This document shows positions 21,674 through 62,257 of a stretch of DNA of 64,000 bases, one piece after another. Both the position numbers and the translations under genes were made by a program. Under the pieces are notes generated by a model that saw nothing but the letters and a program-made list of their open reading frames with translations, was not told the DNA's origin and did no database searches. Source of the stretch: Armatimonadota bacterium (lineage in GTDB: Bacteria; Armatimonadota; Chthonomonadetes; Chthonomonadales; Chthonomonadaceae); NCBI GenBank assembly GCA_028871815.1, contig JAGWMJ010000001.1, forward strand, positions 372,001-436,000, given 5' to 3'. The first letter of the stretch is position 1. Every line of letters begins with the position of its first letter.

Positions 21674-24489
21674 GCTTCGCCGTCGGATCGCTGGTGAAGG
21701 CACGCGGGCGTGAGTGGGTCGTATTGCCCGAATCCGAAGACGAACTCCTTGTTCTCCGTCCGCTGGGCGGAACGGAAGACGAGGTTGCGGGCATCTTTCT
21801 TCCACTAGAGAAGGTCGAGCCGGCTGCATTCGACCTACCGGACCCCTCACACAGTGGGGACTTCCGCTCGTGCAGACTTCTCCGGGACGCGGTGCGTCTC
21901 GGCTTCCGGTCCAGCGCCGGCCCATTTCGCTCGTTTGCACAGATTGCCGTCGAGCCGAGAGCGTATCAAATCGTTCCGCTGCTCATGGCGCTCAAAATGG
22001 AGACCGTTCGGCTCCTGATCGCGGACGACGTTGGCATCGGCAAGACGATCGAAGCGGGTCTTGTCGCCAGGGAGCTTCTGGATCGAGGAGAAGTCACTCG
22101 CCTTGCGGTTCTGTGTTTGCCGCAGATAGCAGAGCAATGGCAGGCGGAGCTCCGAGACAAGTTCCACATCGACGCCGAGCTAGTACTGCCATCTACTGCT
22201 TCACGCTTGGAGAGAAACTGCCGCATCGGGCAATCGCTGTTCGACATCTACCCATTCGTCGTCGTATCCACTGACTTCATTAAGTCCGACCGCCGATTGG
22301 ACGAGTTTCTTCGCACGTGTCCTGAGCTGGTTATCGTTGACGAGGCACATACCTGCGCCTGGAGTGGCGAAGGCCGGGGAGGGCGCCACCAGCGTCATCG
22401 ATTGGTATCCGGCCTGGCCGCGCGGCAGGACCGTCACCTCATGCTCGTGACCGCTACCCCGCATAGCGGCAACGAGAATGCATTTCGCTCGCTGCTCCGT
22501 CTCCTGAAACCGGAATTCGGGGAGCTGTCGGACGACCTTTCGGGACCACAGAACGAACGGCACAGGCGAACGCTTGCAGCTCACTTCGTTCAGCGACGCC
22601 GGGCGGACATTCGCTCCTATCTGAGCGACGAGACGCCCTTCCCAAGTCGTGAGGAAGCGGAAGAGACCTACAAGCTGTCCGAACCCTATCGCAAGCTCTT
22701 CGACAAGGTCTTGCGCTACGCTCGCGAGACCGTCGCCGATCAAACGGGCGGAAAGCACCGCCAAAGAGTTCGGTGGTGGTCGGCGTTGGCGCTGCTCCGG
22801 TCCATTGCATCCAGCCCCGCAGCGGCAGCGGCGACTTTGAGAAGCCGAGCATCGACGGCGGACACTGTAACCGTCGAGGAAGCCGACGCGGTCGGGCGCA
22901 GGTCAGTCCTCGACCTGCCGGGTGATGAGTCTGCTGAGGATGCGGACGTAACGCCGGGCAGCATCGAGGGAACCGAAGACGACGAGTCGCAGCCCAATCG
23001 TCGGCGCCTGTTGGATCTGGCGCGCGAGGCGGACGCGCTCAAGGGAGCGGACGATTTCAAGCTCCAAAAGGCGATCACTCTCCTCAAGAAGGTTGTTCAA
23101 GACGGATTCCGACCGATCGTGTTCTGCCGTTTTATCGACACTGCACATTACGTGGCGCAAGCCCTCAGGGAGAAGCTTCCGAAGGATATCGAGGTTTCAT
23201 CGATCACGGGAACACTGCCTCCGGCAGAGCGCGAATCCCGAGTGGCCGAGCTCATTCAAGCGCCGAAGCACATTCTCGTGTGCACGGACTGCTTGTCGGA
23301 GGGCATCAACCTCCAAGAAGGGTTCGATGCCGTCGTTCACTACGACCTGTCGTGGAACCCCACTCGCCATGAGCAGCGCGAAGGCCGAGTAGACCGATAC
23401 GGCCAGCCCTCAGGCACGGTTCGAGCGCTGACCTACTACGGAGTAGACAACCAGATCGACGGGATCGTCCTCGACGTGCTCCTTCGCAAGCACAAGATGA
23501 TCCGAAACAGCCTCGGTATCTCCGTACCGGTACCCGCGAACTCCGACCAGGTTGTCGAAGCCATCTTCGAGGGCCTGCTGCTGCGCGGCGCAACCGGCGC
23601 GGCCTCCTCTCAGCTCTCTCTGCAGTTTGACGAATTGATTGCCCAGCAAAAGCACGATCTCCATACGGAATGGGAGGCTGCAACGGAACGCGAGAAGAGG
23701 TCTCGCACGCTCTTCGCCCAGGAGACGATTAAGGTTGCAGAGGTCGCTACCGAGCTTGACGCCGTACGCGATGCCATCGGGTCCGGCACAACCGTCGAGG
23801 CATTCCTCCGCGAGTCGATTCGTGCCAACGGCGGAACGGTTTCAGGATCGGGCACGCTTGAGTCGGACCTCGCCGCTTGTCCGCAGGCGGTCCAAGATGC
23901 TGTCGGAGGCACCACGAAGTTCCGAGCGCGATTCTCCCTACCGGTCCGAGAGGACGAGATCTACTTGTCGCGCACCCATCCCATCGTGGAAGGTCTCGCC
24001 ACCTATACGATGGATTCGGCGCTTGACACGCTGGGGAATGGTGTGGCCCGCCGCTGCGGAGCCATCCGCACCGATCACGTGGAGCGTCGGACGACCCTCT
24101 TGATGCTCCGGTTGCGATTTCACATCGTAAGCCGGCGCGGAACGGACGAACGACAGCTTCTGGCGGAGGACCTCTCGCTCGTTGCATTTGAGGGTTCACC
24201 ACAGAGCCCGCATTGGCTAGACACCGGGCACGCGGAGTCTCTCTTACTCGCTGAACCGAAGGGCAACATACCACCCGACCAGGCGCAGTCTTTCCTCCAG
24301 CGCGTGATAGACGACTTTGAATATCTCCGGCCGGCACTGGACACGACCGCCCAGGAGTGCGCCGAGGAACTGCTGAACTCGCACCGCCGTGTTCGCTCCG
24401 CGTCGGAACAACGCGGAATCACCTATCGAGTCGAGCCGCAATTACCACCGGATGTGCTCGGACTCTATGTTTTTCTGCCCGCCGTGTGA
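21670..24489 (+). CDS. SNF2-family helicase, DrmD-like
   Basis: The 939-residue product opens with a small beta domain. Then it has the helicase core: Walker A DDVGIGKTIEAGL (near 118-130), CLPQIAEQWQAEL, DEAH in VIVDEAHTC (near 222), TATPHSG, and in lobe 2 CTDCLSEGINLQEGF and QREGRVDRYGQ. The segment GPFRSFAQIAVEPRAYQIVP before Walker A is what I associate with DrmD-type proteins of DISARM class 1. Known DISARM role: one of the translocases that restrict unmodified phage DNA. It overlaps the upstream helicase gene and is 9 bases from the methylase gene. Confidence 0.85.
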   Translation: MSFAVGSLVKARGREWVVLPESEDELLVLRPLGGTEDEVAGIFLPLEKVEPAAFDLPDPSHSGDFRSCRLLRDAVRLGFRSSAGPFRSFAQIAVEPRAYQIVPLLMALKMETVRLLIADDVGIGKTIEAGLVARELLDRGEVTRLAVLCLPQIAEQWQAELRDKFHIDAELVLPSTASRLERNCRIGQSLFDIYPFVVVSTDFIKSDRRLDEFLRTCPELVIVDEAHTCAWSGEGRGGRHQRHRLVSGLAARQDRHLMLVTATPHSGNENAFRSLLRLLKPEFGELSDDLSGPQNERHRRTLAAHFVQRRRADIRSYLSDETPFPSREEAEETYKLSEPYRKLFDKVLRYARETVADQTGGKHRQRVRWWSALALLRSIASSPAAAAATLRSRASTADTVTVEEADAVGRRSVLDLPGDESAEDADVTPGSIEGTEDDESQPNRRRLLDLAREADALKGADDFKLQKAITLLKKVVQDGFRPIVFCRFIDTAHYVAQALREKLPKDIEVSSITGTLPPAERESRVAELIQAPKHILVCTDCLSEGINLQEGFDAVVHYDLSWNPTRHEQREGRVDRYGQPSGTVRALTYYGVDNQIDGIVLDVLLRKHKMIRNSLGISVPVPANSDQVVEAIFEGLLLRGATGAASSQLSLQFDELIAQQKHDLHTEWEAATEREKRSRTLFAQETIKVAEVATELDAVRDAIGSGTTVEAFLRESIRANGGTVSGSGTLESDLAACPQAVQDAVGGTTKFRARFSLPVREDEIYLSRTHPIVEGLATYTMDSALDTLGNGVARRCGAIRTDHVERRTTLLMLRLRFHIVSRRGTDERQLLAEDLSLVAFEGSPQSPHWLDTGHAESLLLAEPKGNIPPDQAQSFLQRVIDDFEYLRPALDTTAQECAEELLNSHRRVRSASEQRGITYRVEPQLPPDVLGLYVFLPAV

Positions 24490-24498
24490 CACCGAACG

Positions 24499-27400
24499 AT
24501 GCAAGTCAAGCGCCGAGACATCTTCACAACGGTTCGGACCGAAGGCGGAATTCTGCCCGCCGACCTCTTGCAGCGCGTCGTCTCCGCTGACCGAAGCGTT
24601 GAGGGACTTTCCCCAGAAGACTATCACCTAGCGCCAAGCGAGAAGATCAACGAGGCGATCAACCGCGCATGGAACCGGCTGCAGGGCTCATGGGAGACGT
24701 TCCGCGCCGCGGCCGAGAAGCTGCCAACCGGCGATCCAGGAACAAGCGTAACGCGCGAGCGCTGGCTCCTTCCGCTGTTTCAGGAGCTAGGCTACGGCCG
24801 ATTGCAGACCGCCAAGGCGACCGAGATCGACGGAAAGTCGTATGCGGTCTCGCACGCGTGGGGACATGTACCCATCCACCTGGTAGGCTGCCTGGTCGAA
24901 TTGGATAGACCGACGCGTGGCGTGGCGGGCGCGGCAAGATCCAGCCCGCACAGCCTGACGCAGGAGCTCCTCAATCGCTCCGACGAGCACCTTTGGGCTT
25001 TCGTCTCGAATGGGAGGCGACTGCGAATCCTACGCGACAACAAGAGCCTGACACGCCAGTCCTACGTCGAGTTCGACCTCGAATCGGTGATGGAGGGCGA
25101 GGTCTACGCGGACTTCGTTCTCTTGTGGCTCCTCTGCCATGAGTCGCGCGTGGAGGCGGAACGGCCTGAGCAGTGCTGGCTTGAGAAGTGGTCGCGGGCG
25201 GCGCAGGAACAGGGCACGCGCGCCCTTGACCAGCTTCGCGACGGCGTTGAGAAAGCAATCACCGCTCTCGGTAAGGGCTTCGTTGCGCATCCAGCCAACC
25301 GCGGCCTACGCGATTGCCTCCGCTCCGGTTCACTCTCAACACAGGATTACTACCGCCAGCTACTTCGCGTCGTCTACCGGCTGCTGTTCCTCTTCGTAGC
25401 GGAGGATCGTGAGCTTCTCCTCGACCCAGGAGCTTCGCAAGATGCGCGAGCACGTTACCTCCGGTTCTATGCTTCGGCACGCTTGCGCCGATTGGCGGAG
25501 CGCCAGCGCGGAACGCGGCACAGCGATCTCTACGCCGGCTTAAGCATCGTTCTCGATAACCTCTACGCCGGCCTGCCGGCGCTTGGCTTGCCGGCACTTG
25601 GCAGCTTCCTATTCTCCTCCAGCGCCACCTCGGATCTGAATGCCTGCGAGATCGCGAACCACGACCTCCTTGACGCCATCCGCGCGCTTGCCTTTACGTT
25701 GGACGGTCGAATCAGGCGCGCCGTGGACTACAAGAACCTCCGCTCCGAGGAACTCGGCAGCGTGTATGAGGCCCTCCTTGAGCTCCACCCCGAGCTGAAC
25801 GTAGACGCGGGCACGTTCGGCCTTCGTACAGCCGGAGGGAGCGAGCGGAAGACAACCGGCTCGTACTACACGCCCGACAGCCTTGTTCAGTGCCTTCTCG
25901 ACAGCGCGCTTGACCCCGTCGTGGACGAGGCGGTCAAGAAACCGAATCCGGAGCAAGCGATCCTCGACCTGAAGGTCTGCGACCCAGCGTGCGGTAGCGG
26001 GCATTTCCTCATCGCCGCAGCGCACCGAATTGCGAAGCGGTTGGCATCTGTCCGAACGGGCGACGAGGAGCCTTCGCCCGCAGCCACGAGAACCGCGCTC
26101 CGCGACATCATCGGCCGTTGTATATACGGCGTGGATCTCAATCCAATGGCGGTCGAGTTGTGCAAGGTTGCGCTCTGGATGGAGGCGTTGGAACCGGGCC
26201 GACCGCTATGTTTCCTCGACCACCACATCCAGTGCGGCAACAGTCTGGTTGGGGCGACACCGGCGCTCATCGAAAACGGAATCCCCGACGCTGCATTCGA
26301 CCCCATCGAAGGGGACGACAAGGCAGTCTGCACTGAGTTCAAGCGACGCAATCGCACGGAGCGCGAGGGGCAGGGCTCGCTCTACGACGCGAACCTGCAA
26401 CCATGGGAGCGTCTGGGCGACCTCACCACCGGCATTGTTCAACTAAGCGATCTCCCGGACGACACGCTCGCGGGTGTCCAGACGCGCCAGGCGCGCTACG
26501 AGGAGCTGGTACGCTCACAAGCCTATGAGAACGGCAAAATGCTGGCGGACGCCTGGTGCGCCGCGTTCGTGTGGAAGAAGACGCGTGAAGCCGATCGATA
26601 CCCGCTAACGACCGCACAACTGCGCCGCATACTTCGGAGCCCACATAACGTTGAGGCGTGGATGCGCCACGAGATCGAGCAACTCGCACAGGAATACAGA
26701 TTTCTACACTGGCACCTCGCATTCCCCGATGTTTTCCGGATTCCCGGCGAGAACGAGACGGCTGACGATGCACAGTCGGGGTGGATCGGCGGGTTCCATA
26801 TTGTCTTAGGCAATCCGCCTTGGGACACCCTTAGCCCTGACCAACGAGAGTTCTTCAGTCGATGGGTCGTCGGCCTGCGGTCGCTGGCCCCCGGTGAACA
26901 GAAGGAAGAGGTCGAGAAGCTCCTCGCAGATACATTCATTACATCGCTTTGGACGGCTCACTGTCGCAATCTGTTCGCATTGGTTCACTTCCTGAAGAGC
27001 AGCGGCGTCTACACGTTGTATGCGCCAGGCAACCTCGGCAAGGGCGATTTCAATGTATACCGGATGTTTGTGGAGTTGGCGGTTCGTCGTGTTCGGCCCG
27101 CCGGGCTTGCTGCACAAATCGCTCCTGCCGGTCTGTACGGCGGCGCCAATGCTTCGGCCATTCGGAAGTTCATGCTCGACGAGAATCGCCTTATGTTGCT
27201 GGTTGGGTGCGAGAATAAGGGTCGCGTGTTCTTTCCCCATGTACATCCGCAAACGTGGTTCACATTGTACGCATTACAGCGTGGTGGTCGCACAGCGAGG
27301 CTAAGTACTGCATTCGGCATCGACTCGGTCGAGAAGGCACTCAGCGTCCGCGCCGAAACGATTGAGCTGGACGCAGACCTAATCCGCGAACTTGCGCCCG

Positions 27401-28746
27401 ATACATACGCCATCGCCGATCTCCGGAGCCTAAGCGAATTGGCGACCAACCAGAAGATTAACGGAGCGTGCCCTGCTTTCGGTAATCGAGGCGCTGGTCC
27501 GCCGATTCGCCATTACCAGCGCGAGATTGACATGGGAAATGATCGAGACCTCTTCACTTCAGATCCGAGAGGACTACCTGTGTATGAGGGACGGATGATC
27601 GACCACTATGATCATCGCGCGAAAACTTACCAATCGGGCCACGGCAACAGCGCCATCTGGATCGAGCGTCCATTCACAGACCCAGAGAAGGCCGTTGTCC
27701 CGCAATGGCGAGTCCTCCCCGAGAATATCCCGTCGAAGCTCGGCAATCGGTGCACTCACTATCGAATCGGTTTCGGCGACGTTGCCAACCCGCGAAATGA
27801 GAGGAGCTTTGTCGCGACTCTGATCCCACCAGGCACGATCTGTGGCCACACGGTCCCTACAATAACCTTCGAGCCTGGGTACGAATGGGCATACCTGCCA
27901 TGGCTAGCCGTCGCCAACAGTTTCGTAATGGACGCATTCGCTCGCCGGAAGTTGAGCTCTCCGCATATGACCTACACGGTCCTCGACAGCTTGCCCTTTC
28001 CTCGGCCGTCGCTCACGGAGCCCTTGGTCCATGATGTGGCCCGGTTAGTCTTGCGCCTGATATGCACGGCGCCTGAAATGGCCGGCTATTGGAACCACAT
28101 GGCGGAGCTGGGCCTAGTCGAGCGCGTGCCTCCAGATACCATACCCCTCGACGCGTTTCGGACCGAAACGGCTAGAATCCAGGCTCGCGCACGGATTGAG
28201 GCGATCGTCGCAATTCGTGTATTCAGCCTCACACGCGATGAGCTCTGCGGTGCGCTTGACACGTTCGACGTATTGCAACGGCGCGAGGTTATCGCGTTTG
28301 GCGATTATCAAACCAAACGCGTCACGCTCGAAGCCTTCGACGAAATGTGGGAGGCGATAGAGACCGGCGCCCCATATCGCACCCGACTCGATCCGCCGCC
28401 GCCGAACGGCTGGACGCCACCGGAGGAGCTGCTGAAGGACACGTTCGCCACGGCGGCGGCCTACACCCCGGCCAAGGCAGAGACGCCGATCGATCGCGAG
28501 GAGCCAGCCGACTTCGCCCTCGTGTCTCCGCCCGCCTCGCCAAAGCCGATCCTGGACAAGGACGGCGAGGTCCTCCGTGTGCGGGTGTATGACCACAAGG
28601 AGCAGGTTGTGCTGAACCGGGGCGTCGCGGTCGGAAGGGAGAAGCGCGACGGCACGTCAATATGGAAGGTCCTGGCGGACGGAGAGAAGGAGCCGAGAAG
28701 CTTCGCAAGCCCGCCGTTCGTGTTGAAGTGGTTGAGGGCCAGATGA
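24499..28746 (+). CDS. Large Eco57I/PglX-type adenine-specific DNA methylase, DrmMI-like
   Basis: The 1415-residue product has SAM-binding motif I DPACGSGHFL (near 495-504), preceded by GSYYTPDSLVQCLLDSALDP, and the catalytic motif IV NPPW in VLGNPPWDTL (near 771). This is the N6-adenine class of Eco57I, PglX and DrmMI proteins. The ~490-residue N-terminal region and ~600-residue C-terminal region would hold target recognition. The final ~30 residues (IWKVLADGEKEP then SPPFVLKWL) recur in the small protein at 33603. Likely role: marks self DNA, or acts with the helicases as in DISARM. No separate cognate restriction enzyme is seen. Confidence 0.88.
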   Translation: MQVKRRDIFTTVRTEGGILPADLLQRVVSADRSVEGLSPEDYHLAPSEKINEAINRAWNRLQGSWETFRAAAEKLPTGDPGTSVTRERWLLPLFQELGYGRLQTAKATEIDGKSYAVSHAWGHVPIHLVGCLVELDRPTRGVAGAARSSPHSLTQELLNRSDEHLWAFVSNGRRLRILRDNKSLTRQSYVEFDLESVMEGEVYADFVLLWLLCHESRVEAERPEQCWLEKWSRAAQEQGTRALDQLRDGVEKAITALGKGFVAHPANRGLRDCLRSGSLSTQDYYRQLLRVVYRLLFLFVAEDRELLLDPGASQDARARYLRFYASARLRRLAERQRGTRHSDLYAGLSIVLDNLYAGLPALGLPALGSFLFSSSATSDLNACEIANHDLLDAIRALAFTLDGRIRRAVDYKNLRSEELGSVYEALLELHPELNVDAGTFGLRTAGGSERKTTGSYYTPDSLVQCLLDSALDPVVDEAVKKPNPEQAILDLKVCDPACGSGHFLIAAAHRIAKRLASVRTGDEEPSPAATRTALRDIIGRCIYGVDLNPMAVELCKVALWMEALEPGRPLCFLDHHIQCGNSLVGATPALIENGIPDAAFDPIEGDDKAVCTEFKRRNRTEREGQGSLYDANLQPWERLGDLTTGIVQLSDLPDDTLAGVQTRQARYEELVRSQAYENGKMLADAWCAAFVWKKTREADRYPLTTAQLRRILRSPHNVEAWMRHEIEQLAQEYRFLHWHLAFPDVFRIPGENETADDAQSGWIGGFHIVLGNPPWDTLSPDQREFFSRWVVGLRSLAPGEQKEEVEKLLADTFITSLWTAHCRNLFALVHFLKSSGVYTLYAPGNLGKGDFNVYRMFVELAVRRVRPAGLAAQIAPAGLYGGANASAIRKFMLDENRLMLLVGCENKGRVFFPHVHPQTWFTLYALQRGGRTARLSTAFGIDSVEKALSVRAETIELDADLIRELAPDTYAIADLRSLSELATNQKINGACPAFGNRGAGPPIRHYQREIDMGNDRDLFTSDPRGLPVYEGRMIDHYDHRAKTYQSGHGNSAIWIERPFTDPEKAVVPQWRVLPENIPSKLGNRCTHYRIGFGDVANPRNERSFVATLIPPGTICGHTVPTITFEPGYEWAYLPWLAVANSFVMDAFARRKLSSPHMTYTVLDSLPFPRPSLTEPLVHDVARLVLRLICTAPEMAGYWNHMAELGLVERVPPDTIPLDAFRTETARIQARARIEAIVAIRVFSLTRDELCGALDTFDVLQRREVIAFGDYQTKRVTLEAFDEMWEAIETGAPYRTRLDPPPPNGWTPPEELLKDTFATAAAYTPAKAETPIDREEPADFALVSPPASPKPILDKDGEVLRVRVYDHKEQVVLNRGVAVGREKRDGTSIWKVLADGEKEPRSFASPPFVLKWLRAR

Positions 28747-35525: not shown

Positions 35526-36968
35526 TTACATTACGAGTTGCCGCAGATAGGCATGAAGATGACGATTGATTTTCTCGTCGTCACGGCTCGCTCGTGCTTC
35601 TAGCAGCAACCTAATGTCGGTGTCGTCGAGCGCCAAGATGAATCCCCGATCGTCGTTCACCGCATCTCGGCAACGCTTCGTCATCATGTCTCTGTCCTGT
35701 ATTGAGCGACAGACTAATAAGCCACACTTACCGCGATTCGGGCTGAAGCGCCCCGCCAGCTGGTCCAACTCCGGGTTCACAGGATCATCTTTGTAGTTCT
35801 TGCACTCGGCGAAGACATACGGGCATGGAATGTCGTGCCTCAACTTGAGATCGAAGAAGAAACCCTTGCTTGCTGAGTTCTGAAAACTGATGTCAATGCG
35901 CTTGCGCCCATCATGGATCTCCTGCTCCTTCTTCGGGTATCTAAGAGACGGATAGAAGATGACCTCCAGCGCGCCCATGATGAAGGCATGAAACCTTCCT
36001 GCAGTATCGCCACCCGGAGGAATAGAGTCTAATTCGTCAATCAGTTTACGCACATCGATCGCGCGACGGTCAGTCTGGACACCTTCGATTTCCTCGTTGT
36101 TAGGCGGGCCGGGCTTGGCGGCGAGCGACTTCTTATACTCCTCCAGTATGTCCGGGTGCTCCTCCGAGAACTTCGCGAGAAACGCTTTACTGCAGGGATA
36201 CTTCTCCTTCAGGTCGGTCTTGGTGACTACGCGTTTACCGTTCTTGAGGACTTTGACAAGCGACGTCGCGGCTTCCAAGTTTTCGGCTTGAAGGTATTCC
36301 AAGACGAAGTTGCGGTGGTATTCTTGATGATCGACAGCAAGTCGAAATCTGGTCGCTGCTTTGGGGACAAGAATGAGGCGTTCGCCCTGGTAGGTGGGGA
36401 GATTTACGTATCGATTCTCCCAATTGCGACGATCTGAGTTCCAAACGAACCCGGATTGTGTCTTGCGTGTTGGAATACCCAACAACGTACATTGAGTTTC
36501 GGTGTATTCTAGAAGCTTGCCCCGAATGATGTTGACTGTGACATCCGAGATCTTATCGTTACTGATACCTTCAATCAGAAGCTCGCAGTCCGACAGATCG
36601 CGTAGTTGTCCAGACGCGACCGCCCGGCTCTTGCTCAATTGTGAGTAGATCTGATTGGCTTGATGGCGCCCGATTCCTCTCCCAGCCGGACGACCCGAGG
36701 ACAACCCTAGGTGGGTTTCGTTCGGCTCGTGCAGATTCAGGAGTAATGTCCCTGCCGTGCGAGTATCACCGCTGCGTATGCTATCAACTACCAGTTGGAA
36801 GAAATCTACGATGAGGTCGTTGCATTCCATATACCAAATGTCGTCGGCCAAACTCAGCGCGTAAGGATCAACGAACAGCGGGATGTCAGTCGTGAGAGGA
36901 ATGTCAATGAAATCCAATTCCGCTTGAGACTTGCCCAATCGGAAGTGATCTGAGAAGCGGTATGCCAC
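35526..36968 (-). CDS. PD-(D/E)XK-type nuclease domain protein
   Basis: The 480-residue product is given a GTG start at 36968, preceded by AGGAG; a TTG at 36998 is an alternative. The C-terminal ~150 residues contain GRKRIDISF, then YVFAECKNYKDD, fitting the D...ExK catalytic core of Mrr-like nucleases. Then GLLVCRSI and FILALDDTDI follow. The N-terminal ~330 residues (FRLGKSQAELDFIDIPLTTD, DPYALSL) are unrecognised and may sense or bind a target. It is convergent with the OLD gene. A further restriction-type effector is the likely role. Confidence 0.7.
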   Translation of the reverse strand: MAYRFSDHFRLGKSQAELDFIDIPLTTDIPLFVDPYALSLADDIWYMECNDLIVDFFQLVVDSIRSGDTRTAGTLLLNLHEPNETHLGLSSGRPAGRGIGRHQANQIYSQLSKSRAVASGQLRDLSDCELLIEGISNDKISDVTVNIIRGKLLEYTETQCTLLGIPTRKTQSGFVWNSDRRNWENRYVNLPTYQGERLILVPKAATRFRLAVDHQEYHRNFVLEYLQAENLEAATSLVKVLKNGKRVVTKTDLKEKYPCSKAFLAKFSEEHPDILEEYKKSLAAKPGPPNNEEIEGVQTDRRAIDVRKLIDELDSIPPGGDTAGRFHAFIMGALEVIFYPSLRYPKKEQEIHDGRKRIDISFQNSASKGFFFDLKLRHDIPCPYVFAECKNYKDDPVNPELDQLAGRFSPNRGKCGLLVCRSIQDRDMMTKRCRDAVNDDRGFILALDDTDIRLLLEARASRDDEKINRHLHAYLRQLVM

Positions 36969-37320
36969 TTGATTCTCTCCTGAACTGCCGTAGAGCAAAT
37001 CGCTGGGACGGCCTAAGCAATGCTAACGCCAGTGCTTAAGCGCTAGGCCCGCCGATCAACCAGCTTTCGTCGTCACCGAAGACGGCTGGCATCCAGTTAC
37101 GCACCTTCTTGTTGCCTCAGAGTACCACACGAGAACGGGCGCGCTGACGAGCTGGTACGAGGCCAGGCACGCGCGGTATCTGCGTCCCTCGACGCGGCGG
37201 GAACACTGGCCCGAGTATGCGCAACATCAATCCCCTCGCGAAGACTCTTCGGATGTCAGGCCCTACTGCAACCGAACATGCAACTGTACTTGTCGTCGGC
37301 GCCAGGGCATACTCGTTGTC
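36969..37320 (+). pseudogene. Gap with a possible gene remnant (open frame without a start)
   Basis: From 37027 to 37320 the plus strand is open in the frame of the primase gene but has no ATG, GTG or TTG. It reads protein-like: AFVVTEDGWHPVTHLLVASE, TGALTSWYEARHARYL. The last ~25 codons before 37321 look random (CNRTCNCTCRRR). This suggests the end of a lost gene, or an N-terminal extension of the primase begun at a rare codon. The inverted repeat GCCTAAGC...GCTTAAGC near 37011-37041 may mark an old junction. No other feature was seen. Confidence 0.35.
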
Positions 37321-38214
37321 ATGTACGACGAGCGGGCAAGGTGGGAATCACGGGCGCGGGCGGAACACGATGCGGAGCGCACAAGGCGCGCATATGCCGC
37401 GGTCGAAATGCTCGACGCCTTTGCTAACGTCGGCGCGAAGGCGTTCGACCTCACAATCACCTCCGAGATTGGGGAGAAGGTCAGCTTCAGGCGCGGCGTC
37501 CGCGGTCAGGAGCTCCGCCGATCTCTGCCGGATCTGCTGGCGCGCTGCTGCGCCCATCGATGGAACGTGATCGTAAGGCCGAAGGCCCCGCCCGTGTTTC
37601 TGCAGCTTGACGACCTAGACGCCGAGCGCCGCGGCCGGCTCGATCGCGTATCATTCCTAAGCCTGGAAACGAGCCCCGGCAACTTCCAGGCGTGGGTCGC
37701 GCTCAACGAGGTGAGCAGCGACGACCTTCCGCGTCGGCTCCGCCTTGGTGTTGGCGCCGATCCGAGTGCATCGGGAGCCACGCGAGTCGCCGGCAGCAGG
37801 AACTTCAAGCCCAAATACGCCCCCGACTACCCGGAGGTCGCGGTATGTCACGTTCGGCCGGGCAACCTCACATCAGAGGCAGAGCTGGGCGCGGCGGGCT
37901 TCCTCGCTCCTCCTGATACGAGGTGTGCCGGCCCCGTCCCGAAACGACGGCCACTGCGGACGCGGAAACGATGGCCGTCGTACGAGCGCTGTGTCGCCGA
38001 CGCGCCGGCCAATCACGGCGGCACCGCGCCTGACATCAGCCGCGCGGACTTCACATTCTGCCTTATCGCCATCGATTGGGGCTGGACGCCGGACGATACC
38101 GCGGCTCGCCTGATGGAAGAGAGTTCGAAGGCGAGAGAGAACGGCGAGCGATACGCTAGACTGACCGCCCAGCGCGCAGCAGATGCCTTAACGCGTCGGC
38201 GCACCGCCTACTGA
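37321..38214 (+). CDS. RepB-like DNA primase
   Basis: The 297-residue product contains VFLQLDDLDAERRGRL, LSLETSPGNFQAWVAL and GADPSASGATRVAGSRNFKP. These are the three conserved blocks of the RepB' primase family first known from plasmid RSF1010 (archaeo-eukaryotic primase-like fold). Known role: primes plasmid strands at single-stranded initiation sites. The C-terminal ~90 residues are helical and basic. It marks this region as the replication module of a former or facultative plasmid. Confidence 0.88.
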   Translation: MYDERARWESRARAEHDAERTRRAYAAVEMLDAFANVGAKAFDLTITSEIGEKVSFRRGVRGQELRRSLPDLLARCCAHRWNVIVRPKAPPVFLQLDDLDAERRGRLDRVSFLSLETSPGNFQAWVALNEVSSDDLPRRLRLGVGADPSASGATRVAGSRNFKPKYAPDYPEVAVCHVRPGNLTSEAELGAAGFLAPPDTRCAGPVPKRRPLRTRKRWPSYERCVADAPANHGGTAPDISRADFTFCLIAIDWGWTPDDTAARLMEESSKARENGERYARLTAQRAADALTRRRTAY

Positions 38215-38219: not shown

Positions 38220-38558
38220 TTACGCCGCTTCATCCACGACCGTCCGCGTTCTGCCCTGCTCAAGTATCCAGTCATGAGCGCGATCGGCGGCCTTGCACAG
38301 CAGCGGAAGGTCCTCACGGCCGAAGCTGTCGGAGCGCTTCCATTGCTGGCCGTCCTTGTATATCCGACTGACTGTAACATTGTGCCGAGGGCCGTACTCG
38401 GTCTCGTGCATCCAGATCGCCGCCACGATGCGCCCAAGCCGGATCTCGTGGACTGGCTGGTTTGTTCGCCCGATGGATTCGCCATTAAGGTCGCTGTCCT
38501 GGTCATCGGGCTGGGCCGGTAGGGGTTGTCGTCGCTGCCTCGTCTCTGTGTTGCGCAT
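38220..38558 (-). CDS. Small plasmid-associated protein, function unknown
   Basis: The 112-residue product starts at ATG 38558 behind TTGGAGGAA. The core EIRLGRIVAAIWMHETEYG, then HNVTVSRIYKDGQQW and SFGREDLPLLCKAADRAHDW, is a recurring small protein on plasmids and integrated elements, seen in many bacteria. No biochemical role is known to me. It is convergent with the primase gene (5 bases between stops) and lies downstream of the gene at 38623, likely in one operon. Confidence 0.75.
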   Translation of the reverse strand: MRNTETRQRRQPLPAQPDDQDSDLNGESIGRTNQPVHEIRLGRIVAAIWMHETEYGPRHNVTVSRIYKDGQQWKRSDSFGREDLPLLCKAADRAHDWILEQGRTRTVVDEAA

Positions 38559-38622
38559 GTTCCTCCAAGGTAAATGGGTCCGCTCGGCTGCCTGGCAGAG
38601 CGGCGCGTTCGTGTAGATGCTC

Positions 38623-38928
38623 CTAGTACTCCTCCGGCAGGAGGATGGTCGTGACAGACCTGTCCGCCTCCGTGATGATCCAGATCTTGGCGCCAGTCTG
38701 CGGGAGCGTGTACGCGGAGAGGAGCCGGAAGCCTTCGCGCAAGGACAGCTCGTTCTCTTCCTGGTCGGCCTTGCAAACCTCACCCCAATCTCCGCGCTGA
38801 TGTCGCCGGATGAACTCCAGTGGCGTCACCTTCGCGTCCGTCAGAGCTTCGAGCGCAGCCGGCGTCGCAAGGAGCCGTCCTAGGTCCACCTGAATTCGTC
38901 GTCGGCGGTCGGGGTTCTGAGCGAGCAT
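38623..38928 (-). CDS. Small plasmid-associated protein, function unknown
   Basis: The 101-residue product starts at ATG 38928 behind GGAGGCAAG. Recognisable segments are VDLGRLLATPAALEALTDA, FIRRHQRGDWGEVC and FRLLSAYTLPQTGAKIWIIT, ending in a TILLPEEY-type tail. This is a recurrent partner of the protein at 38220 on plasmids and integrative elements. A well-formed promoter (38946-38973) precedes it. The function is not known. Confidence 0.75.
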   Translation of the reverse strand: MLAQNPDRRRRIQVDLGRLLATPAALEALTDAKVTPLEFIRRHQRGDWGEVCKADQEENELSLREGFRLLSAYTLPQTGAKIWIITEADRSVTTILLPEEY

Positions 38929-38945
38929 CTTGCCTCCAGCGTGCC

Positions 38946-38973
38946 AGCATAGCAGCTCGCGCCCGCTAGTCAA
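38946..38973 (-). promoter_or_regulatory. Sigma70-type promoter for the 38928-38220 gene pair
   Basis: Read on the minus strand: -35 TTGACT (38968-38973), 16-base spacer, -10 TATGCT (38946-38951), about 17 bases before the start codon. It is divergent from the replication promoter. Confidence 0.6.
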
Positions 38974-39003
38974 GAAAAGTCTACGCTCGCGCACGATTTC
39001 CTC

Positions 39004-39065: not shown

Positions 39066-39920
39066 ATGGTCAGCTATCTCAAACACTTCCGCCTCAACCG
39101 CCCACCGTTCTCGACGACCCCCGACCCGGCGTTCGCTTATAGCAGCCTTGAGCATGAGAAAGCCCTGCTCAAGATAGACTACTACGCACGTGAACGACAG
39201 GGGCTCTTCCTTCTGATCGGTGAGGTCGGCACCGGCAAGACCACCGTATCCCATCTCGCCGTGAATTCGTGGCGGGAGGAGCCGGACCGGTTCGTTGTCG
39301 GGCAAGTGAACGACGCATCACCCCGCACGCCGGCAGCGTTCCTCCGTAACGTCCTGGCGTCGTTCGGCATTCCGCCTGTGAGGAATCTACTCGACCTCAA
39401 GGCGGAACTGCGGGCCTTTCTGGTTGACGAGTACAAGAAGGGCCGCACCGTGGTCCTCGTCATCGATGAGGCGCAGACCATACATTCCTACAACCTCCAC
39501 ACGATCCACGCGATGACGAACGAGCAGACGCAGACCGAGAAGCTCATCCAAATCGTGCTTCTAGCCCAGCCCAACTTCAAGAACAGGCTCGCACAGAATC
39601 CGGCGCTGAGATCGAGGATCGCCGGCATTGCAACGCTTGACCCCCTCACCTGGGAGGAATCGCTCGAAATGCTCCGCCATCGGATGACAATAGCGGGCGG
39701 TCACTTCGACGGCGTGTTCCTGGAACCAACGCACAAGATGCTCTACAACGCGACGGGAGGCGTTCCGCGCGACCTCTGCGTTCTCTGCAACGCGGCGCTC
39801 CTGGCCGCATTCGCCGCGGGCAAGCCGGAGATTGACGATCACACTCTGCGGCGCACGCTGAGCGACTACAACATGAAGAACTGGGCGAGCCCCGATTTCC
39901 GGGCGGCAGCCAACCAATAG
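39066..39920 (+). CDS. ExeA/GspA-like AAA ATPase of the plasmid maintenance module
   Basis: The 284-residue product starts at ATG 39066 behind GGGAGGAC. It opens with YLKHFRLNRPPFSTTPDP, the typical ExeA/TniB-like start, then Walker A GEVGTGKTT (near 57-65), Walker B VVLVIDEAQT, and sensor/arginine features LAQPNFKNRL and RSRIAG. Family members pull or load protein complexes (secretion, transposition). On plasmids this type occurs next to replication genes. First gene of a three-gene operon with the RHH and replication genes. Confidence 0.85.
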   Translation: MVSYLKHFRLNRPPFSTTPDPAFAYSSLEHEKALLKIDYYARERQGLFLLIGEVGTGKTTVSHLAVNSWREEPDRFVVGQVNDASPRTPAAFLRNVLASFGIPPVRNLLDLKAELRAFLVDEYKKGRTVVLVIDEAQTIHSYNLHTIHAMTNEQTQTEKLIQIVLLAQPNFKNRLAQNPALRSRIAGIATLDPLTWEESLEMLRHRMTIAGGHFDGVFLEPTHKMLYNATGGVPRDLCVLCNAALLAAFAAGKPEIDDHTLRRTLSDYNMKNWASPDFRAAANQ

Positions 39921-39926: not shown

Positions 39927-40409
39927 ATGACATCGCAACGAACGAGAAGCCTCACACTCCCCAGCGATCCGGTTGCCAGATTGCGAGAGCTGCACGAGCT
40001 CGATGCACGACCGCGCAACGGCGCAGAAACGCAGCAACGTAGCAACGCACCCTCGCCGCAACGCGCCAACGCTGCCACGAGCGAGCCAGTCAACGCTGCT
40101 CCGCCAGAGCCAAGCACCGCGTCAGCGCGCGAGCGAGAGGACGCCCAACCGCACGACCGCAGTAACGGGGCGGCGCCGCAAGGCGAGGTTGGCGCAGACC
40201 CGGTCCGCCAGGCCATGAAGGACGCGCTTAAGCGTCCATACGCCACCGACCTACACAACGGGCCGAGTACGAGCTCGACAATCCGGCTTCCGGCGGACCT
40301 CTGGGAACGCCTTGACATGGCCGCGCGGCTCCAGAGCCAGACCAAGCAGTCAATTATCGCCGATGCGCTCAAGGAGCACCTTCAGCGCATCGGGAGGCGA
40401 TCGCAATGA
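39927..40409 (+). CDS. Ribbon-helix-helix protein with low-complexity N-terminal half
   Basis: In the 160-residue product, residues ~112-155 (SSTIRLPADLWERLDMAARL, then SIIADALKEHL) form a CopG/Arc-type ribbon-helix-helix domain. Residues 30-90 are rich in Ala, Asn, Gln, Ser and Pro and are encoded by an 8-base-periodic DNA repeat. Likely role: autorepressor or centromere-binding factor for the ATPase. The stop overlaps the next start (ATGA). Confidence 0.75.
   Translation: MTSQRTRSLTLPSDPVARLRELHELDARPRNGAETQQRSNAPSPQRANAATSEPVNAAPPEPSTASAREREDAQPHDRSNGAAPQGEVGADPVRQAMKDALKRPYATDLHNGPSTSSTIRLPADLWERLDMAARLQSQTKQSIIADALKEHLQRIGRRSQ
40026..40095 (+). repeat. Iteron-like array of degenerate GCAACGCN octamers
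   Basis: Hexamers related to GCAACG lie at 40026, 40034, 40042, 40058, 40066, 40074 and 40090, all on an 8-base grid; another copy at 40015 is off grid. An 8-base period is not a codon multiple, so the repetition is at DNA level although it lies in a coding region. It is about 310 bases before the replication gene. Confidence 0.55.
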
Positions 40410-41539
40410 CACGCGCGCTCATCCCAAACAGCACTCAGATTCCCGATGTCATCCTCGACTTCTGGCTTTCGGAACTCTCGGGCGCAGAACTCAAGGTCGT
40501 TTTGTACGTTGGGCGCAGGACGTTCGGCTTCGGGAAGCAGAGCGACAACATCAGCCTTAGTCAGATAAGCACCGGCATCGTTAAGCGCGATGGAACTGTT
40601 CTCGACACCGGCACCGGACTGTCCCGGTCAAGTGTCGCGAGAGCAATCAAGACCCTGGAGGCGAAGCAGATCATCCTTCGCAAGTTAAACCTCAATGAGA
40701 AATCGAACGAACACGAGGAGAGTACCTACCGACTCAATCTCGCTTGGAGGGTCAAGGGCAGTTCGGGAGGGGGAGGGAGGGTAGTCCCAGATTCGGACCA
40801 CGTACCTTCAAACGGTGACGCGAGGTGGTCTCACGACCGGACCACCAGTAGTCCCAAGATCGAACCGGGCGTAGTCCCAGAATCGAACCCTCAAGAAACA
40901 GCACAAGAGGCAGAACAAGAAACAGCAGCAGTGCCATCCGTACCGTGTACGGATGCTGCTGAACTCGTACATGAGCTAATCGCTCATGACATGAACCGAG
41001 GTGACGCGATCCGACTTGCGACGGCTGACGCCGCCCAGTGCCGCCGGCAACTCGACTTCCTGCGGTTCCGCATGAGAGTGGGGTTCGTCTTCAAGAGTGG
41101 CCGGGGGGCGTTCCTTCGCCGAGCTATCGAGGACGGATTCGCCCCGCCACGAGGTTATGAAGAAGCACGGCGCGCAGAGGTCCGATCCATGGCGAGAAAG
41201 GCTCACAGGAGCGCTGAGATTGCCCTGAGAGCCTCGAAACGGAGTTCGCTGAAGCAGACTCTTGCCCGCCTTGAGATCGACCAACCTGACGAGTTTGCGG
41301 CATTCCTGGCATATGTTGAAAGGAAGAAGCGGGAGGCCGTGGACAGACCGATCGTCAAGGGAGCGCCGGAAGTTGGAGAACGGCTCATCCGGTCCTTCGA
41401 GACCGAAGGAACACGTTTGGCGCTGCTGGCAGAGTTTCTTACCGATCAGTCACTCTCGTACGGGACGCAACGGATGCCGCGCTCATTCGACGGATCGACG
41501 CGGATTGTCGGCTCGACCTCTTCGAGGAAACCGTCGTAG
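40406..41539 (+). CDS. Winged-helix replication protein (phage O / plasmid initiator-like)
   Basis: The N-terminal ~110 residues of the 377-residue product (SELSGAELKVVLYVGRRTFG, LSQISTGI, GLSRSSVARAIKTLEAKQII) match the helix-turn-helix of phage replication protein O and related initiators. The central ~60 residues are a polar linker. The C terminus is helical and basic (RSMARKAHRSAEIALRASKR). Likely role: binds the nearby octamer repeats and recruits host helicase. The 3' end overlaps the convergent SARP-DUF4263 gene by 94 bases. Confidence 0.75.
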   Translation: MTRALIPNSTQIPDVILDFWLSELSGAELKVVLYVGRRTFGFGKQSDNISLSQISTGIVKRDGTVLDTGTGLSRSSVARAIKTLEAKQIILRKLNLNEKSNEHEESTYRLNLAWRVKGSSGGGGRVVPDSDHVPSNGDARWSHDRTTSSPKIEPGVVPESNPQETAQEAEQETAAVPSVPCTDAAELVHELIAHDMNRGDAIRLATADAAQCRRQLDFLRFRMRVGFVFKSGRGAFLRRAIEDGFAPPRGYEEARRAEVRSMARKAHRSAEIALRASKRSSLKQTLARLEIDQPDEFAAFLAYVERKKREAVDRPIVKGAPEVGERLIRSFETEGTRLALLAEFLTDQSLSYGTQRMPRSFDGSTRIVGSTSSRKPS

Positions 41540-42864
41540 GTCCGAATTGCCAGACCACTCGATTCGTTTCCCCGCCGCGCTTCCAACTTCTCTTTTGCAC
41601 GCACGCTGCTCAGCTCGGACCTACGGCCAATGACGAGTGTGCACTTCGGGATGAAGAAGCCGCGAGAGAGCGGTTCGCCTGCGACCTCCTCATACCGCGG
41701 TCCAAAGACCTCTGGCAAATGCCACTGGTTTCGGCCGATCCAGTAAGCACACGCTTCGAGGAGTTCCGTCGCGCGGTGGAACTGAGGCGTGAATTCCTCG
41801 CGCTCCGTGAAGATGCGCGTAGCTGGATCTGCGAAGGAGATCACGTGGACGTAGCTCCGACCGGATTGCGGCTCGATGTATGCAAAGTCGGCGCACGCGA
41901 GATCAGCGTGAGACTTGTGCCCAAGATCAATATTGGACATTACAACGCCGGCATGAACGAAATCTGAACCCGCCAATAAGTGCGGATGCTGTCGGAGCAA
42001 CCTCCTGACGGCCGCGGCGGTCTGCTCCTTGTCGATTGCTCGCGCAAGTTCGGCCCGTAATTGCTCGCTTGAGCTCTGCTTCACTGCTTCATAGGGCTGC
42101 CGCGGTTCGTTAACGACATCGGCCCCTACGTGCCTAGTGACGTGGAATCGCTCAACAGACGGAAGGTCTGCCATGTTCGATCCGCCCTTGGCACGGAACT
42201 GCGTCAATGCCCAGACAGCCCTATCCCGTTTTCCCAGGAACTCGCACGCTTCCACATACCGCCTAGTCCGTTCTTCGTCGGGCCGCGGATTCTCCGCTAG
42301 AGCGATTGCAAGGGACCTGATCTCGGCGTCGCGGTCACCCTTCTCCCTCGCAAGATTTGCGATGGCGTCAACCGCAGCGAAGAGTTCCCCTCGGAGTAGC
42401 TCACGCTCTGGTTCGATAGATGCAACTCCATCAGGGAAGTCTGATAACAATCGACTAGGGCGCATGTGCACGGCCGCTTCGATTTGAGCCGGATCGGCAT
42501 CCGCCACCGCGTCGATGAGAATCGAGCGGAACTCAATGAGGTCGAATTCGGCGCCGGTGAGATCCAAGTGGATAACGCCTGCGGCCGGACGCGATATCCG
42601 CTCCTCTGCCCAGCCGAGGCAGGCCTCAAGTTGCGGCATGATGCGATTCACGGGGTAGTTGGTTCCGTCGCCGAATGGCCATAGGGCGACCGACAGCTCT
42701 CTCCTCGACAACGAACGACTCCGCGCACTCGCCATCGCTAGCAGGATGAAGACCCATCGCGTCTTCTTCGGCATGAACCGCACAGGATTGCCGTTTACCA
42801 TGACCTCGCTCGCGCCGAACACGCGAATTCCCAGGGAATGGGAACGGCCTGTGTCAACTGCCAT
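41446..42864 (-). CDS. SARP-like regulator fused to a degenerate DUF4263 (Shedu-type) domain
   Basis: The N-terminal ~100 residues of the 472-residue product (VFGASEVMVNGNPVRFMPKK, LSRRELSVALWPFG) are an OmpR/SARP-type winged helix. A BTAD-like helical repeat region follows to ~225. The C-terminal ~180 residues follow DUF4263: LLRQHPHLLAGSDF, ADFAYIEPQSG, LLEACAYWIGRNQWHLPEVF, PKCTLVIGRRSEL, AIRTYDGFLEEVE. Where SduA-like nucleases have a VEIK-type ExK, this protein reads YVHVISFADP. It is therefore probably a binding or sensing domain, not a nuclease. I know of no described protein of this composition. Confidence 0.7.
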   Translation of the reverse strand: MAVDTGRSHSLGIRVFGASEVMVNGNPVRFMPKKTRWVFILLAMASARSRSLSRRELSVALWPFGDGTNYPVNRIMPQLEACLGWAEERISRPAAGVIHLDLTGAEFDLIEFRSILIDAVADADPAQIEAAVHMRPSRLLSDFPDGVASIEPERELLRGELFAAVDAIANLAREKGDRDAEIRSLAIALAENPRPDEERTRRYVEACEFLGKRDRAVWALTQFRAKGGSNMADLPSVERFHVTRHVGADVVNEPRQPYEAVKQSSSEQLRAELARAIDKEQTAAAVRRLLRQHPHLLAGSDFVHAGVVMSNIDLGHKSHADLACADFAYIEPQSGRSYVHVISFADPATRIFTEREEFTPQFHRATELLEACAYWIGRNQWHLPEVFGPRYEEVAGEPLSRGFFIPKCTLVIGRRSELSSVRAKEKLEARRGNESSGLAIRTYDGFLEEVEPTIRVDPSNERGIRCVPYESD

Positions 42865-43041
42865 TGCGCCGCGATTGTCCTTCCATTGAACCCTCCGCTT
42901 CTACGTTAGTTGCCACCCAACATTCCCGAACTCCCAGGGATTTGCCACTCCTTTTGCAATCCGCCCCGGCCGCACAATTCAACCATTAGCGCGGGCCGCA
43001 TATCCTCATCATGCGATGCGTGCTCGCCGGGAGCAGGTCCG

Positions 43042-43554
43042 GTGCCAGCCAAGCGAGTGGACATCGACAAAACGAAGAACGCCGATCGGCTCGCGGTGCA
43101 TTTCAGCTCGCGGACTGACCTCTGGGCGACACCGGCCGACTTCTTCGCCCGCTTCAACGATGAATTCCAGTTTACCCTCGATGTTTGTGCGCTACCCGAG
43201 AACGCCAAGTGCGAGCGGTTCTTCACTCCGGCTGAAGACGGACTGAGCCAGCAGTGGACCGGAGTCTGCTGGATGAATCCGCCGTACGGTCGAGCCATTC
43301 GGCACTGGGTCGAGAAGGCGTATCACAGCGCGCGAGCCGGAGCCACGGTCGTTTGTCTCCTGCCAGCCAGAACAGATACGAAGTGGTGGCATACGTGGGT
43401 CAAGCCCTTCGGCGAGACACGTTTCATTCAGGGCCGGCTCAAGTTTGGAAACTGCAAGAATTCCGCCCCTTTCCCTTCAGCGATTGTTATCTTTCGGCCT
43501 GGCGCTGCACCGATTGTGTGCAGTGCTTGCGAAGGTGCCGGTCAGCACCGATGA
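43042..43554 (+). CDS. Phage-type DNA N6-adenine methyltransferase (Dam family)
   Basis: The GTG start at 43042, behind GGGAGCAGG, gives 170 residues; GTG 43057 and TTG 42910 are alternatives. RTDLWATPADFFARFNDEF, LDVCALPENAKC and the catalytic WMNPPYGRAIRHWVEKA define the phage Dam family, with LPARTDTKWWH after it. Such stand-alone methylases protect mobile DNA from host restriction. It overlaps the small XRE gene (ATGA). Confidence 0.9.
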   Translation: MPAKRVDIDKTKNADRLAVHFSSRTDLWATPADFFARFNDEFQFTLDVCALPENAKCERFFTPAEDGLSQQWTGVCWMNPPYGRAIRHWVEKAYHSARAGATVVCLLPARTDTKWWHTWVKPFGETRFIQGRLKFGNCKNSAPFPSAIVIFRPGAAPIVCSACEGAGQHR

Positions 43555-43821: not shown

Positions 43822-44808
43822 TTACCGTACGCTTCTCCTCAACCTATCAGCCGGGGAGTATTGCCGGTGCTGGTTCTCTATATCCGCCTGCGCGAGCGCA
43901 ACGTAGCGGTTCGTCATTGTCAGGCTGGTGTGCCCGAGGATCTGCTGTAGGGTGAACACGTTCCCTCCGGCCCGCAGAAACTCCACGGCAAATGTATGAC
44001 GGAATGTGTGCGGGCTGCAGCGGGCAGCCTGTAGCCTTGCCGAGCGACCCAGCCGCACAAACAGGAGCCGGAGGCCGCTTCGAGTCAGCCGTTCGCCGCG
44101 TTCTGACATGAATAGGGGTTCGCCCGGTTCCTGTGGCTCTGCTTTGAGGTAGTTCCACAGCGATTTCGCCGCCGTCTTTCCAAACGGAACCATCCGGCGC
44201 TTGTTCCCCTTCCCAACCACTCCACAGCGCCTTGCCTGAAAGTCTACATCCTCGCGATTCAGGGAGCAGAGCTCAGAGGCACGCAGGCCGGTGTCCAAGA
44301 GGAAGTAGACAATCGCCTGGTTTCGGTATGCCATCTGCGAACGCTTCGCTGCGTTCAGGAGAGCTTCAACCTGGTCCGTCGTGAACGGCTGAACCTGATC
44401 TGCGCGTGAGGTCGGAACCGGAATGCGCTCCATCGGGGAGACGCCGAGTCCGTCTTCCGAGACGATCCAGCGAAAGAGGGTCCGCAGGTGTCCGTGGTAG
44501 GTGTGAACCGTACGCGGGCGAACGGGGCGCGTCTGCTGTGCGTTTCCCCAGCGCCCGCCGGCTTCCTGGTGGCCGTTGGTGACGTAGGCGAGGAACTGCC
44601 TTAATTCCATCGTGCCGCAGCAGTCGAGGTTCTTTTCGCGCAAGAACCAGACGAGCTTGCTAACGATGGAGCGGCGGTTACCGAGGGTGCGAGCGGAATG
44701 CTGATCGATTTCGCCGGACAACAGCCAGCCATCCGCGTAGCGCTCAAGGTCGTTTACGCCGATAGTGGCCGCCTCCGTTTTCGTAAAACGAGGCGCTCTG
44801 TTGTTCAT
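43822..44808 (-). CDS. Tyrosine integrase of the island
   Basis: The 328-residue product starts at ATG 44808 behind GGAGGATAAA. The N-terminal core-binding domain holds RTVHTYHGHLRTLFRWIVSE. The catalytic domain shows Arg in DTGLRASELCSL, Lys in GVVGKGNKRR, His-x-x-Arg in PHTFRHTFAVEF, His in LGHTSLTMTNRYVAL, and Tyr at the end of that segment. The gene begins about 95 bases from the 3' end of tRNA-Val. Known: integrases of this layout insert elements into tRNA 3' ends. Confidence 0.92.
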   Translation of the reverse strand: MNNRAPRFTKTEAATIGVNDLERYADGWLLSGEIDQHSARTLGNRRSIVSKLVWFLREKNLDCCGTMELRQFLAYVTNGHQEAGGRWGNAQQTRPVRPRTVHTYHGHLRTLFRWIVSEDGLGVSPMERIPVPTSRADQVQPFTTDQVEALLNAAKRSQMAYRNQAIVYFLLDTGLRASELCSLNREDVDFQARRCGVVGKGNKRRMVPFGKTAAKSLWNYLKAEPQEPGEPLFMSERGERLTRSGLRLLFVRLGRSARLQAARCSPHTFRHTFAVEFLRAGGNVFTLQQILGHTSLTMTNRYVALAQADIENQHRQYSPADRLRRSVR

Positions 44809-44901
44809 TTTATCCTCCGAACGGTCGTTCAGAGGACAGCAAGACGCCAAACTATTGCGCTCAGTCTGAGCACGAAACGTCGCAGCAGTGCTAGACTTTT
44901 A

Positions 44902-44973
44902 TGGGCAGTACTGGATTCGAACCAGTGACCTCCTCGGTGTGAACGAGGCGCTCTACCGCTGAGCCAACCGCCC
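44902..44973 (-). tRNA. tRNA-Val (anticodon CAC), island attachment site
   Basis: 72 bases fold into a full cloverleaf: acceptor GGGCGGT with ACTGCCC, D stem GCTC/GAGC, anticodon stem CCTCG/CGAGG with loop TTCACAC, T arm ACTGG-TTCGAAT-CCAGT, discriminator A. CCA is not encoded. The 3' end faces the integrase gene, so the gene's 3' part is probably supplied by the island. Confidence 0.95.
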
Positions 44974-60793: not shown

Positions 60794-61540
60794 TCAGTCG
60801 TCTGGCGAATCGCTTTCGCCGGATTCTCCCACCAGGCCAGGTTCGGATTCGCCGGCGCACCACGTCCGGGACAGCAAGAGCACATAGCGGCCATCGTAAT
60901 CCTCTTCGGCCAGCCTTGCCACCTCAGTGATGGGCATCTGCATCACCTCTGCCCCTTTGAGAATGGGATTATCGGCCAGTTCGGCGATGGCCAGATCGAG
61001 GCTTCGTGCGACTGCAAGGTAGGAAGGCTCGCCGGTCGGCACATAGCAGGCGTATGAGCCGGAGGCGGGATAGTGAAACACGCAGGCGGTGTCGGTGCTG
61101 CGGATCTGGTTGTATCGGAATTTCGCGTCCGGCTCTTTCTCGGTGCTCGCTTCCGCTGTGGTTTCGGCGTGGCGTTTCCTGTAGATCTGAGAAGCCGGGC
61201 GTTTCCAGAAGAGCCAACAGCGCCCCTCGCACTCCCGCTCGGCGATCGCTTGTATTTCGGACCAGCGAGCCTCAAAGGTCACCATGTGGCGTAGGAAGTG
61301 CGACCGCTTCTTCTCGGCACGGGCCAACGCCTCCGAGGCGTAGACGGCGAGACATGGGTCATCGTCCCCGTTTGGACACATGATGTACTCAAGGTCCACC
61401 GGATCCACGATGACCCAGAACGAATCGCCACTACTGCGCGCAGCGCCTTTCTGCTTGTGTGAAGCTGACGACCCGCAAGGCACGCCGAGCTTATGTTTCC
61501 GGCCATGCTCAACCTTTTTCGCGTATTTCTTCTTGCTCAT
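60794..61540 (-). CDS. Paralog family copy 3: two-domain form (A plus B)
   Basis: The 248-residue product starts at ATG 61540 behind AGGAG. Domain A: MSKKKYAKKVEHGRKHK, DSFWVIVDPVDLEYIMC, SEALARAEKKRSHFLRHM, EARWSEIQAIAERECEG. A linker (TTAEASTEKEP) leads to domain B: RYNQIRSTDTACVFHYPASG, LAVARSLDLAIAELADNP, YDGRYVLLLSRTW. This is the only intact full-length member. Soluble, no signal peptide, function unknown. Confidence 0.75.
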   Translation of the reverse strand: MSKKKYAKKVEHGRKHKLGVPCGSSASHKQKGAARSSGDSFWVIVDPVDLEYIMCPNGDDDPCLAVYASEALARAEKKRSHFLRHMVTFEARWSEIQAIAERECEGRCWLFWKRPASQIYRKRHAETTAEASTEKEPDAKFRYNQIRSTDTACVFHYPASGSYACYVPTGEPSYLAVARSLDLAIAELADNPILKGAEVMQMPITEVARLAEEDYDGRYVLLLSRTWCAGESEPGLVGESGESDSPDD

Positions 61541-62121: not shown

Positions 62122-62257
62122 GATAACCTCTTGGCCGGAATTGATTCCCAATTTCGTGAGTTTCTTCTCGCCCGTGATAACTCCTCGCAAGACAGGTCTG
62201 GAGTCCGGGATGGTGTCGGTTTGCGCCGATTACCGACACTTTATAACTCGCGAAATT

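Follow-up and report, generated by a model that had tools for sequence, protein, structure and literature searches.

We identified, in the 64,000-nucleotide stretch of DNA analysed here (the window), a mobile element whose conserved replication core encodes a SARP-like transcription regulator fused to an SduA/DUF4263 domain, the domain of the Shedu immune nucleases, with the ExK motif of the active site lost. A former nuclease has here probably been built into a switch that controls genes of the element itself. Shedu is known as a nuclease core under exchangeable sensor domains, and modular N-terminal fusions are typical of the family (PMC12137116); the relation here looks reversed, with an apparently non-catalytic Shedu core joined to a transcription regulator. 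Each half is of a known family and, as far as a limited check goes, the combination, the conserved loss of the catalytic residues and the location in the element core are new. The literature searched had no description of a SARP-DUF4263 fusion; this check was limited and did not cover the main Shedu classification.

The fusion gene and its two halves

The gene lies exactly where an earlier reading, made from the sequence alone, had placed it, and its parts are as follows.

41446..42864, minus strand: SARP-SduA fusion gene, an ORF of 472 amino acids with an ATG start and a full-length ortholog (L002:1474-2877, 52% identical)
42565..42837, minus strand: OmpR-type winged helix, about residues 10-100, from a profile match to wHTH-BTAD proteins
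42124..42564, minus strand: BTAD-like helical domain, about residues 101-247, from the wHTH-BTAD profile alignment
41524..42009, minus strand: SduA_C/DUF4263 domain, residues 286-447, from PF14082 and PADLOC SduA

The N-terminal half was proposed by the sequence-only reading to be a winged-helix plus BTAD regulator, and profile-profile comparison agrees: wHTH-BTAD proteins encoded in related genomes align to residues 3-247 (probability 99.3, E 3.4e-20), and these proteins give curated matches to PF03704 (BTAD, best E 9.5e-25) and for the most part run on into AAA or NB-ARC. In the ortholog the winged-helix part is also matched by Trans_reg_C (E 0.002). The Pfam BTAD model gave no direct match to the N-terminal half of the fusion and, since the wHTH-BTAD profile alignment is positive, we regard the protein as a divergent member of the SARP group. 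Small SARPs consist of wHTH and BTAD, to which the medium and large ones add NB-ARC and TPR (PMC10972967). The fusion shares with SARP regulators the wHTH and BTAD half and direct repeats of SARP style upstream of the gene; in contrast, a dead Shedu core replaces NB-ARC/TPR/LAL, and the gene resides in a mobile element whereas the usual SARP context is a biosynthetic cluster (PMC10972967).

The C-terminal half, suggested earlier to be DUF4263-like, is matched by PF14082 (SduA_C) over residues 286-447 with 36.8 bits (curated cut-off 27, E 5.5e-9) and by PADLOC SduA over residues 262-451 (best E 1.2e-10). Alignment to SduA by profile-profile comparison, the check that had been suggested, was likewise positive, with E 1.2e-6 for the C-terminal domain against short Shedu proteins and E 3.6e-6, over 152 columns, for a three-sequence C-terminal profile against long Shedu proteins; a two-sequence full-length profile aligned with the long proteins over its last 52 columns only (probability 7%). 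The SduA_C match at the C-terminus together with the wHTH-BTAD profile alignment at the N-terminus confirms, at the level of sequence, that the fusion is real. The AlphaFold model of the C-terminal domain, made from three sequences, had a pLDDT of 41 and was too poor for use.

The lost active site and its conservation

Shedu nucleases carry a PD-(D/E)XK active site (D...E-x-K, Gln), which is incomplete in the fusion, where the Asp alone is kept. The residues concerned were compared with those of 17 other DUF4263 proteins, of which 13 belong to the same phylum, two are encoded on viral contigs and two on plasmids, one of Rhizobium and one of E. coli.

41830..41838, minus strand: degenerate ExK motif, S343-F344-A345, from a column-by-column alignment with 17 relatives
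41887..41889, minus strand: retained family Asp, D326, which is Asp in 19 of 19 aligned proteins

The sequence-only reading had located the loss of ExK in the strand YVHVISFADP, and the alignment bears it out, with S343 and A345 at the E and K positions. The first position is Glu in all 17 relatives and the third is Lys in seven, Glu in nine and Gly in one. In the following helix, the Gln that 16 of the 17 possess is replaced by Leu368 in the fusion and by V in the ortholog, which in the same alignment keeps the Asp and has S-F-A identical to the window protein. The register of the motif is clear from the alignment to the nearest outside relative found for the C-terminal domain, a Rhizobium phaseoli protein encoded on plasmid pRetBra5b (L065:5923-6567, E 2e-7), in which CDFAYFAPVSGANYLNLVEIKDP aligns opposite ADFAYIEPQSGRSYVHVISFADP of the window protein. 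This short Shedu protein has the motifs DFAY, DP and IRT(Y/F)DG in common with the fusion but stands alone and has an intact VEIK motif (VEIKDP). The solved SduA chain 8ti8_A gave the same ExK register, in a weak profile alignment (E 0.6). In V. cholerae Shedu the substitution of the nuclease Lys (K557A) abolishes defence (PMC12137116) and, by analogy, catalysis is likely to be lost in the fusion as well. This case is a warning that a match to a DUF4263 or PADLOC model does not by itself mark a functional Shedu system.

We consider it improbable that the protein is still an active nuclease, targeted by its winged helix and cutting with migrated or unusual catalytic residues around D326 (e.g. 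H340, S343, D346). These four residues are invariant between the two orthologs, and migrated catalytic residues do occur in the PD-(D/E)XK superfamily; nevertheless, E, K/E and Q are all gone, a nearby acidic-x-Lys pair is absent and D346 occurs beside an intact ExK in the Rhizobium relative, so that it is no replacement residue. From these substitutions we infer the absence of cleavage.

The sequence-only reading had called for other SARP-DUF4263 fusions, and one more was found: among 291 genomes of the phylum, the full-length protein is present in the window's own genome and in G022, which belongs to a different family of the same order. The two orthologs are about 50-53% identical over the winged helix; the figure is 47% for the BTAD part and rises to 66% across residues 320-460, and the residues common to both include ISFADP..RIF.ER.EFT.QF.RA. 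With synonymous sites saturated, pN is 0.22 in residues 320-460 as compared with 0.37 in the DNA-binding half; dN in residues 320-460 is 0.25, and the DNA-binding half shows about twice the nonsynonymous divergence of this region. Conservation is strongest in residues 341-380 and 441-460, which take in the surroundings of the former active site and the helix that follows. With two known members these values describe the conservation of one pair, and the searches beyond the phylum were shallow. By this comparison of sequences, the dead Shedu domain is under constraint. Since D...S-F-A is identical in the diverged ortholog and the dead domain has changed less than the DNA-binding half, loss of ExK is not recent decay and most likely preceded the split of the two copies. 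Its maintenance in a diverged ortholog fits the earlier suggestion of a former nuclease, retained for another task. A decaying defence gene of no present function would account for the missing catalytic residues; this is scarcely credible, as the frames are intact in two diverged genomes with identical substitutions, the amino-acid constraint is strong (dN 0.25 in residues 320-460) and the upstream region is conserved.

Among the 31 genomes of the order, the window protein alone gave an SduA_C match, and any such match was found in 14 of the 291 genomes of the phylum. This rarity bears on the proposal that the protein, a dead copy of a defence domain carried by a mobile element, is an anti-defence decoy poisoning host Shedu through mixed oligomers. 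Oligomeric Shedu is known (PMC12904381); however, hosts would seldom hold the target, and a conserved winged helix is unnecessary for a decoy, which makes this explanation very unlikely. Phage records and IMG/VR yielded no relative carrying the fusion or its C-terminal domain, and IMG/VR does hold short Shedu proteins without the fusion. A scan of genome contigs for further fusions returned a single match, by chance, to a peptidyl-prolyl isomerase-like protein; the scan was insensitive, because its search words are missing from the true ortholog as well.

The mobile element and its conserved core

The fusion gene is part of an integrated element with the following core and edge features.

37321..38214, plus strand: RepB-like primase, core (PF16793 E 1.4e-5; 62% identical in L018)
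38623..38994, minus strand: small conserved core protein (70% identical in L018)
39066..39920, plus strand: AAA ATPase, core (PF13401 E 1.6e-20; 75% identical in L017)
39927..40409, plus strand: ribbon-helix-helix-like core protein (weak RHH_1 match; syntenic in L017)
40406..41539, plus strand: RepO-like replication protein (PF04492 E 1.4e-8; about 50% identical and in the same place in L017)
43042..43554, plus strand: phage-type Dam N6-adenine methylase, divergent from the fusion gene, with a probable GTG start
43822..44850, minus strand: tyrosine integrase, element edge (PF00589 E 6.5e-41)
44902..44973, minus strand: tRNA-Val, insertion site (ARAGORN)

The RepO-like gene is convergent with the fusion gene and overlaps it by 94 nt. 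The methylase was matched by PF05869 (E 5.3e-31) on a longer dam ORF (42910-43554), and Dam is the divergent neighbour of the fusion gene in L017, the G022 locus, too. A copy of the 3' end of the tRNA-Val gene with one mismatch is found 53.7 kb upstream, at contig position 363248, and the element likely ends near contig positions 363248 and 416925, as judged from the sequence. A second copy, with two mismatches, is located at contig position 360167. The two copies, C1:360167 and C1:363248, lie left of the window about 3.1 kb apart and are possibly att sites accompanied by a second small insertion.

The gene order primase, small protein, AAA ATPase, RHH-like protein, RepO, fusion and Dam is common to the window and G022. 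The two elements differ in recombinase, tRNA site and defence cargo; that of G022 has a serine-recombinase-like gene, named from a reading of its sequence alone, beside tRNA-Met. The cargo in the window comprises DpdE/DrmD-like, DruE-like and DrmMI-like genes, GmrSD, an OLD-like ATPase and a PDC-M36A protein, and the element also carries a TrwC relaxase, a TrwB-like coupling protein and ArdC; none of the cargo genes, the relaxase, the coupling protein or ArdC was matched in the G022 contig. The fusion gene is therefore conserved with the replication core and, unlike Shedu, sits outside the defence cargo. The link to the defence block entertained by the sequence-only reading was rejected, as the element of the ortholog has different defence genes and synteny keeps the replication module on one side of the fusion gene and the Dam methylase on the other. 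At the other RepO-bearing loci of the phylum no fusion gene was found.

Several further features of this DNA were observed. Within the cargo, a three-gene block at 16454-28746 resembles DruE (1739 aa), DpdE/DrmD (939 aa) and DrmMI/type IIG methyltransferase (1415 aa) and is possibly a hybrid of Druantia, Dpd and DISARM parts, and the gene at 35526-36998 (minus strand) encodes a protein that strongly matches the PDC-M36A candidate defence family (E 1.8e-45) and has no Pfam match. The small protein at 38623-38994 (minus strand) ends in ITEADRS.TT.LLP.EY; its relatives (L018:106-405, L018:13665-14375 and L057:7137-7583) lie close to replication or relaxase genes in several elements, two of them on the G022 contig. 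The stretch from the primase to the small protein (about 38220-38570) is conserved with G022 (alignment score 186, shuffle maximum 45) and probably contains a small gene overlooked by a simple gene caller. Outside the element, 60794-62756 (minus strand) holds three short tandem paralogs with MSKKK-like starts.

A candidate operator and the proposed role of the fusion

The region between the fusion gene and dam contains the following elements.

42932..42995, minus strand: conserved intergenic block upstream of the fusion gene, common to the ortholog's locus
42942..42959, minus strand: candidate operator, direct repeat TTGCAA-N6-TGGCAA, ending 77 nt before the ATG
42910..42915, minus strand: third half-site TGGCAA, with a collinear TGGCAA upstream of the ortholog

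The local alignment of the block of about 64 nt between the window and G022 scored 43, a value reached by none of 1000 dinucleotide shuffles, and its mismatches show no codon periodicity. Of the regions examined as controls, the AAA/small-protein intergenic region and the primase-small protein stretch are also conserved, and the regions upstream of the primase and downstream of Dam are not. The G022 counterpart of the repeat, TGGCAG-N6-TGTCAA, likewise ends 77 nt before the ATG, and the extra TGGCAA ends 45 nt (window) and 44 nt (G022) before it. Among pitches of 8-15, a pitch of 12 was best for both regions combined, 12 bp as compared with the classical 11. Allowing up to one mismatch, the pattern TKGCARN6TGKCAA has a single match in the 64-kb window, at this intergenic region, a count that is not significant with 1.3 expected. 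In 20 kb of G022 (L017) it has two matches, both in this region, a number attained by three of 200 shuffles; the two intergenic regions themselves supplied the pattern, so that these matches are no independent test. Scans of the fusion/dam intergenic region for sigma-70 promoters and terminators found nothing. SARPs bind heptameric direct repeats with spacers of 4-15 nt (PMC10972967), and the resemblance of the intergenic repeats to SARP operators in style is suggestive.

On this sequence evidence we favour, on balance, the reading that the fusion protein is a sequence-specific regulator belonging to the element core, to which the dead Shedu core gives an input domain without catalysis. Its SARP-like half would bind the TGGCAA-type direct repeats found between its gene and dam and control its own promoter, the dam promoter, or both. 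The C-terminal core, presumably no longer cutting, would take the place that NB-ARC and TPR have in larger SARPs; it probably binds DNA of a particular state, e.g. ends or excision or replication intermediates, or alternatively sets the oligomeric state, and its state would alter the grip of the winged helices. We infer the DNA binding at the repeat block, the direction of regulation and the signal.

That a dead PD-(D/E)xK domain can take on a different DNA-related role is known from RecC: as in the fusion, its C-terminal nuclease-like domain is inactivated and reused for a DNA-related function (PMC1185551). In contrast to the fusion, a transcription regulator, RecC is part of a helicase-nuclease machine and belongs to another branch of the superfamily. 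Shedu itself, whose C-terminal domain is homologous to that of the fusion, differs in having ExK and Gln and in lacking a transcription regulator as its N-terminal half. The Shedu protein EcSduA forms homotetramers and senses the ends of DNA, and end binding is ascribed to its N-terminal clamp (PMC12904381). End sensing may thus lie outside the Shedu core, which limits the idea of a sensor and makes oligomerisation a serious rival. It is a tentative suggestion that the core is a DNA-state sensor, recognising ends or replication or transfer intermediates without cleaving them, which would switch the methylase and the replication core between a quiet integrated and an active state. Comparably doubtful, in our estimate, is a regulator whose dead Shedu domain is a dimerisation or oligomerisation scaffold only, with no sensing. 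The homotetramer of EcSduA (PMC12904381) speaks for such a scaffold, as does the binding of SARP-like proteins to repeated sites, by which oligomers are favoured; the conservation peak at the former active site, an indirect argument, exceeds what a passive scaffold would seem to need.

Should the core of the proposed regulator still be able to recognise DNA, a defence module would have been repurposed by a mobile element for the timing of its life cycle, and the fusion would be a clean system in which the Shedu core can be studied separately from cleavage.

A different arrangement was observed on a viral contig (L067:2437-3612), where a Shedu domain follows another N-terminal region and has the motif VELGSP; the Glu is kept and Gly stands at the Lys position, and this domain is possibly impaired.
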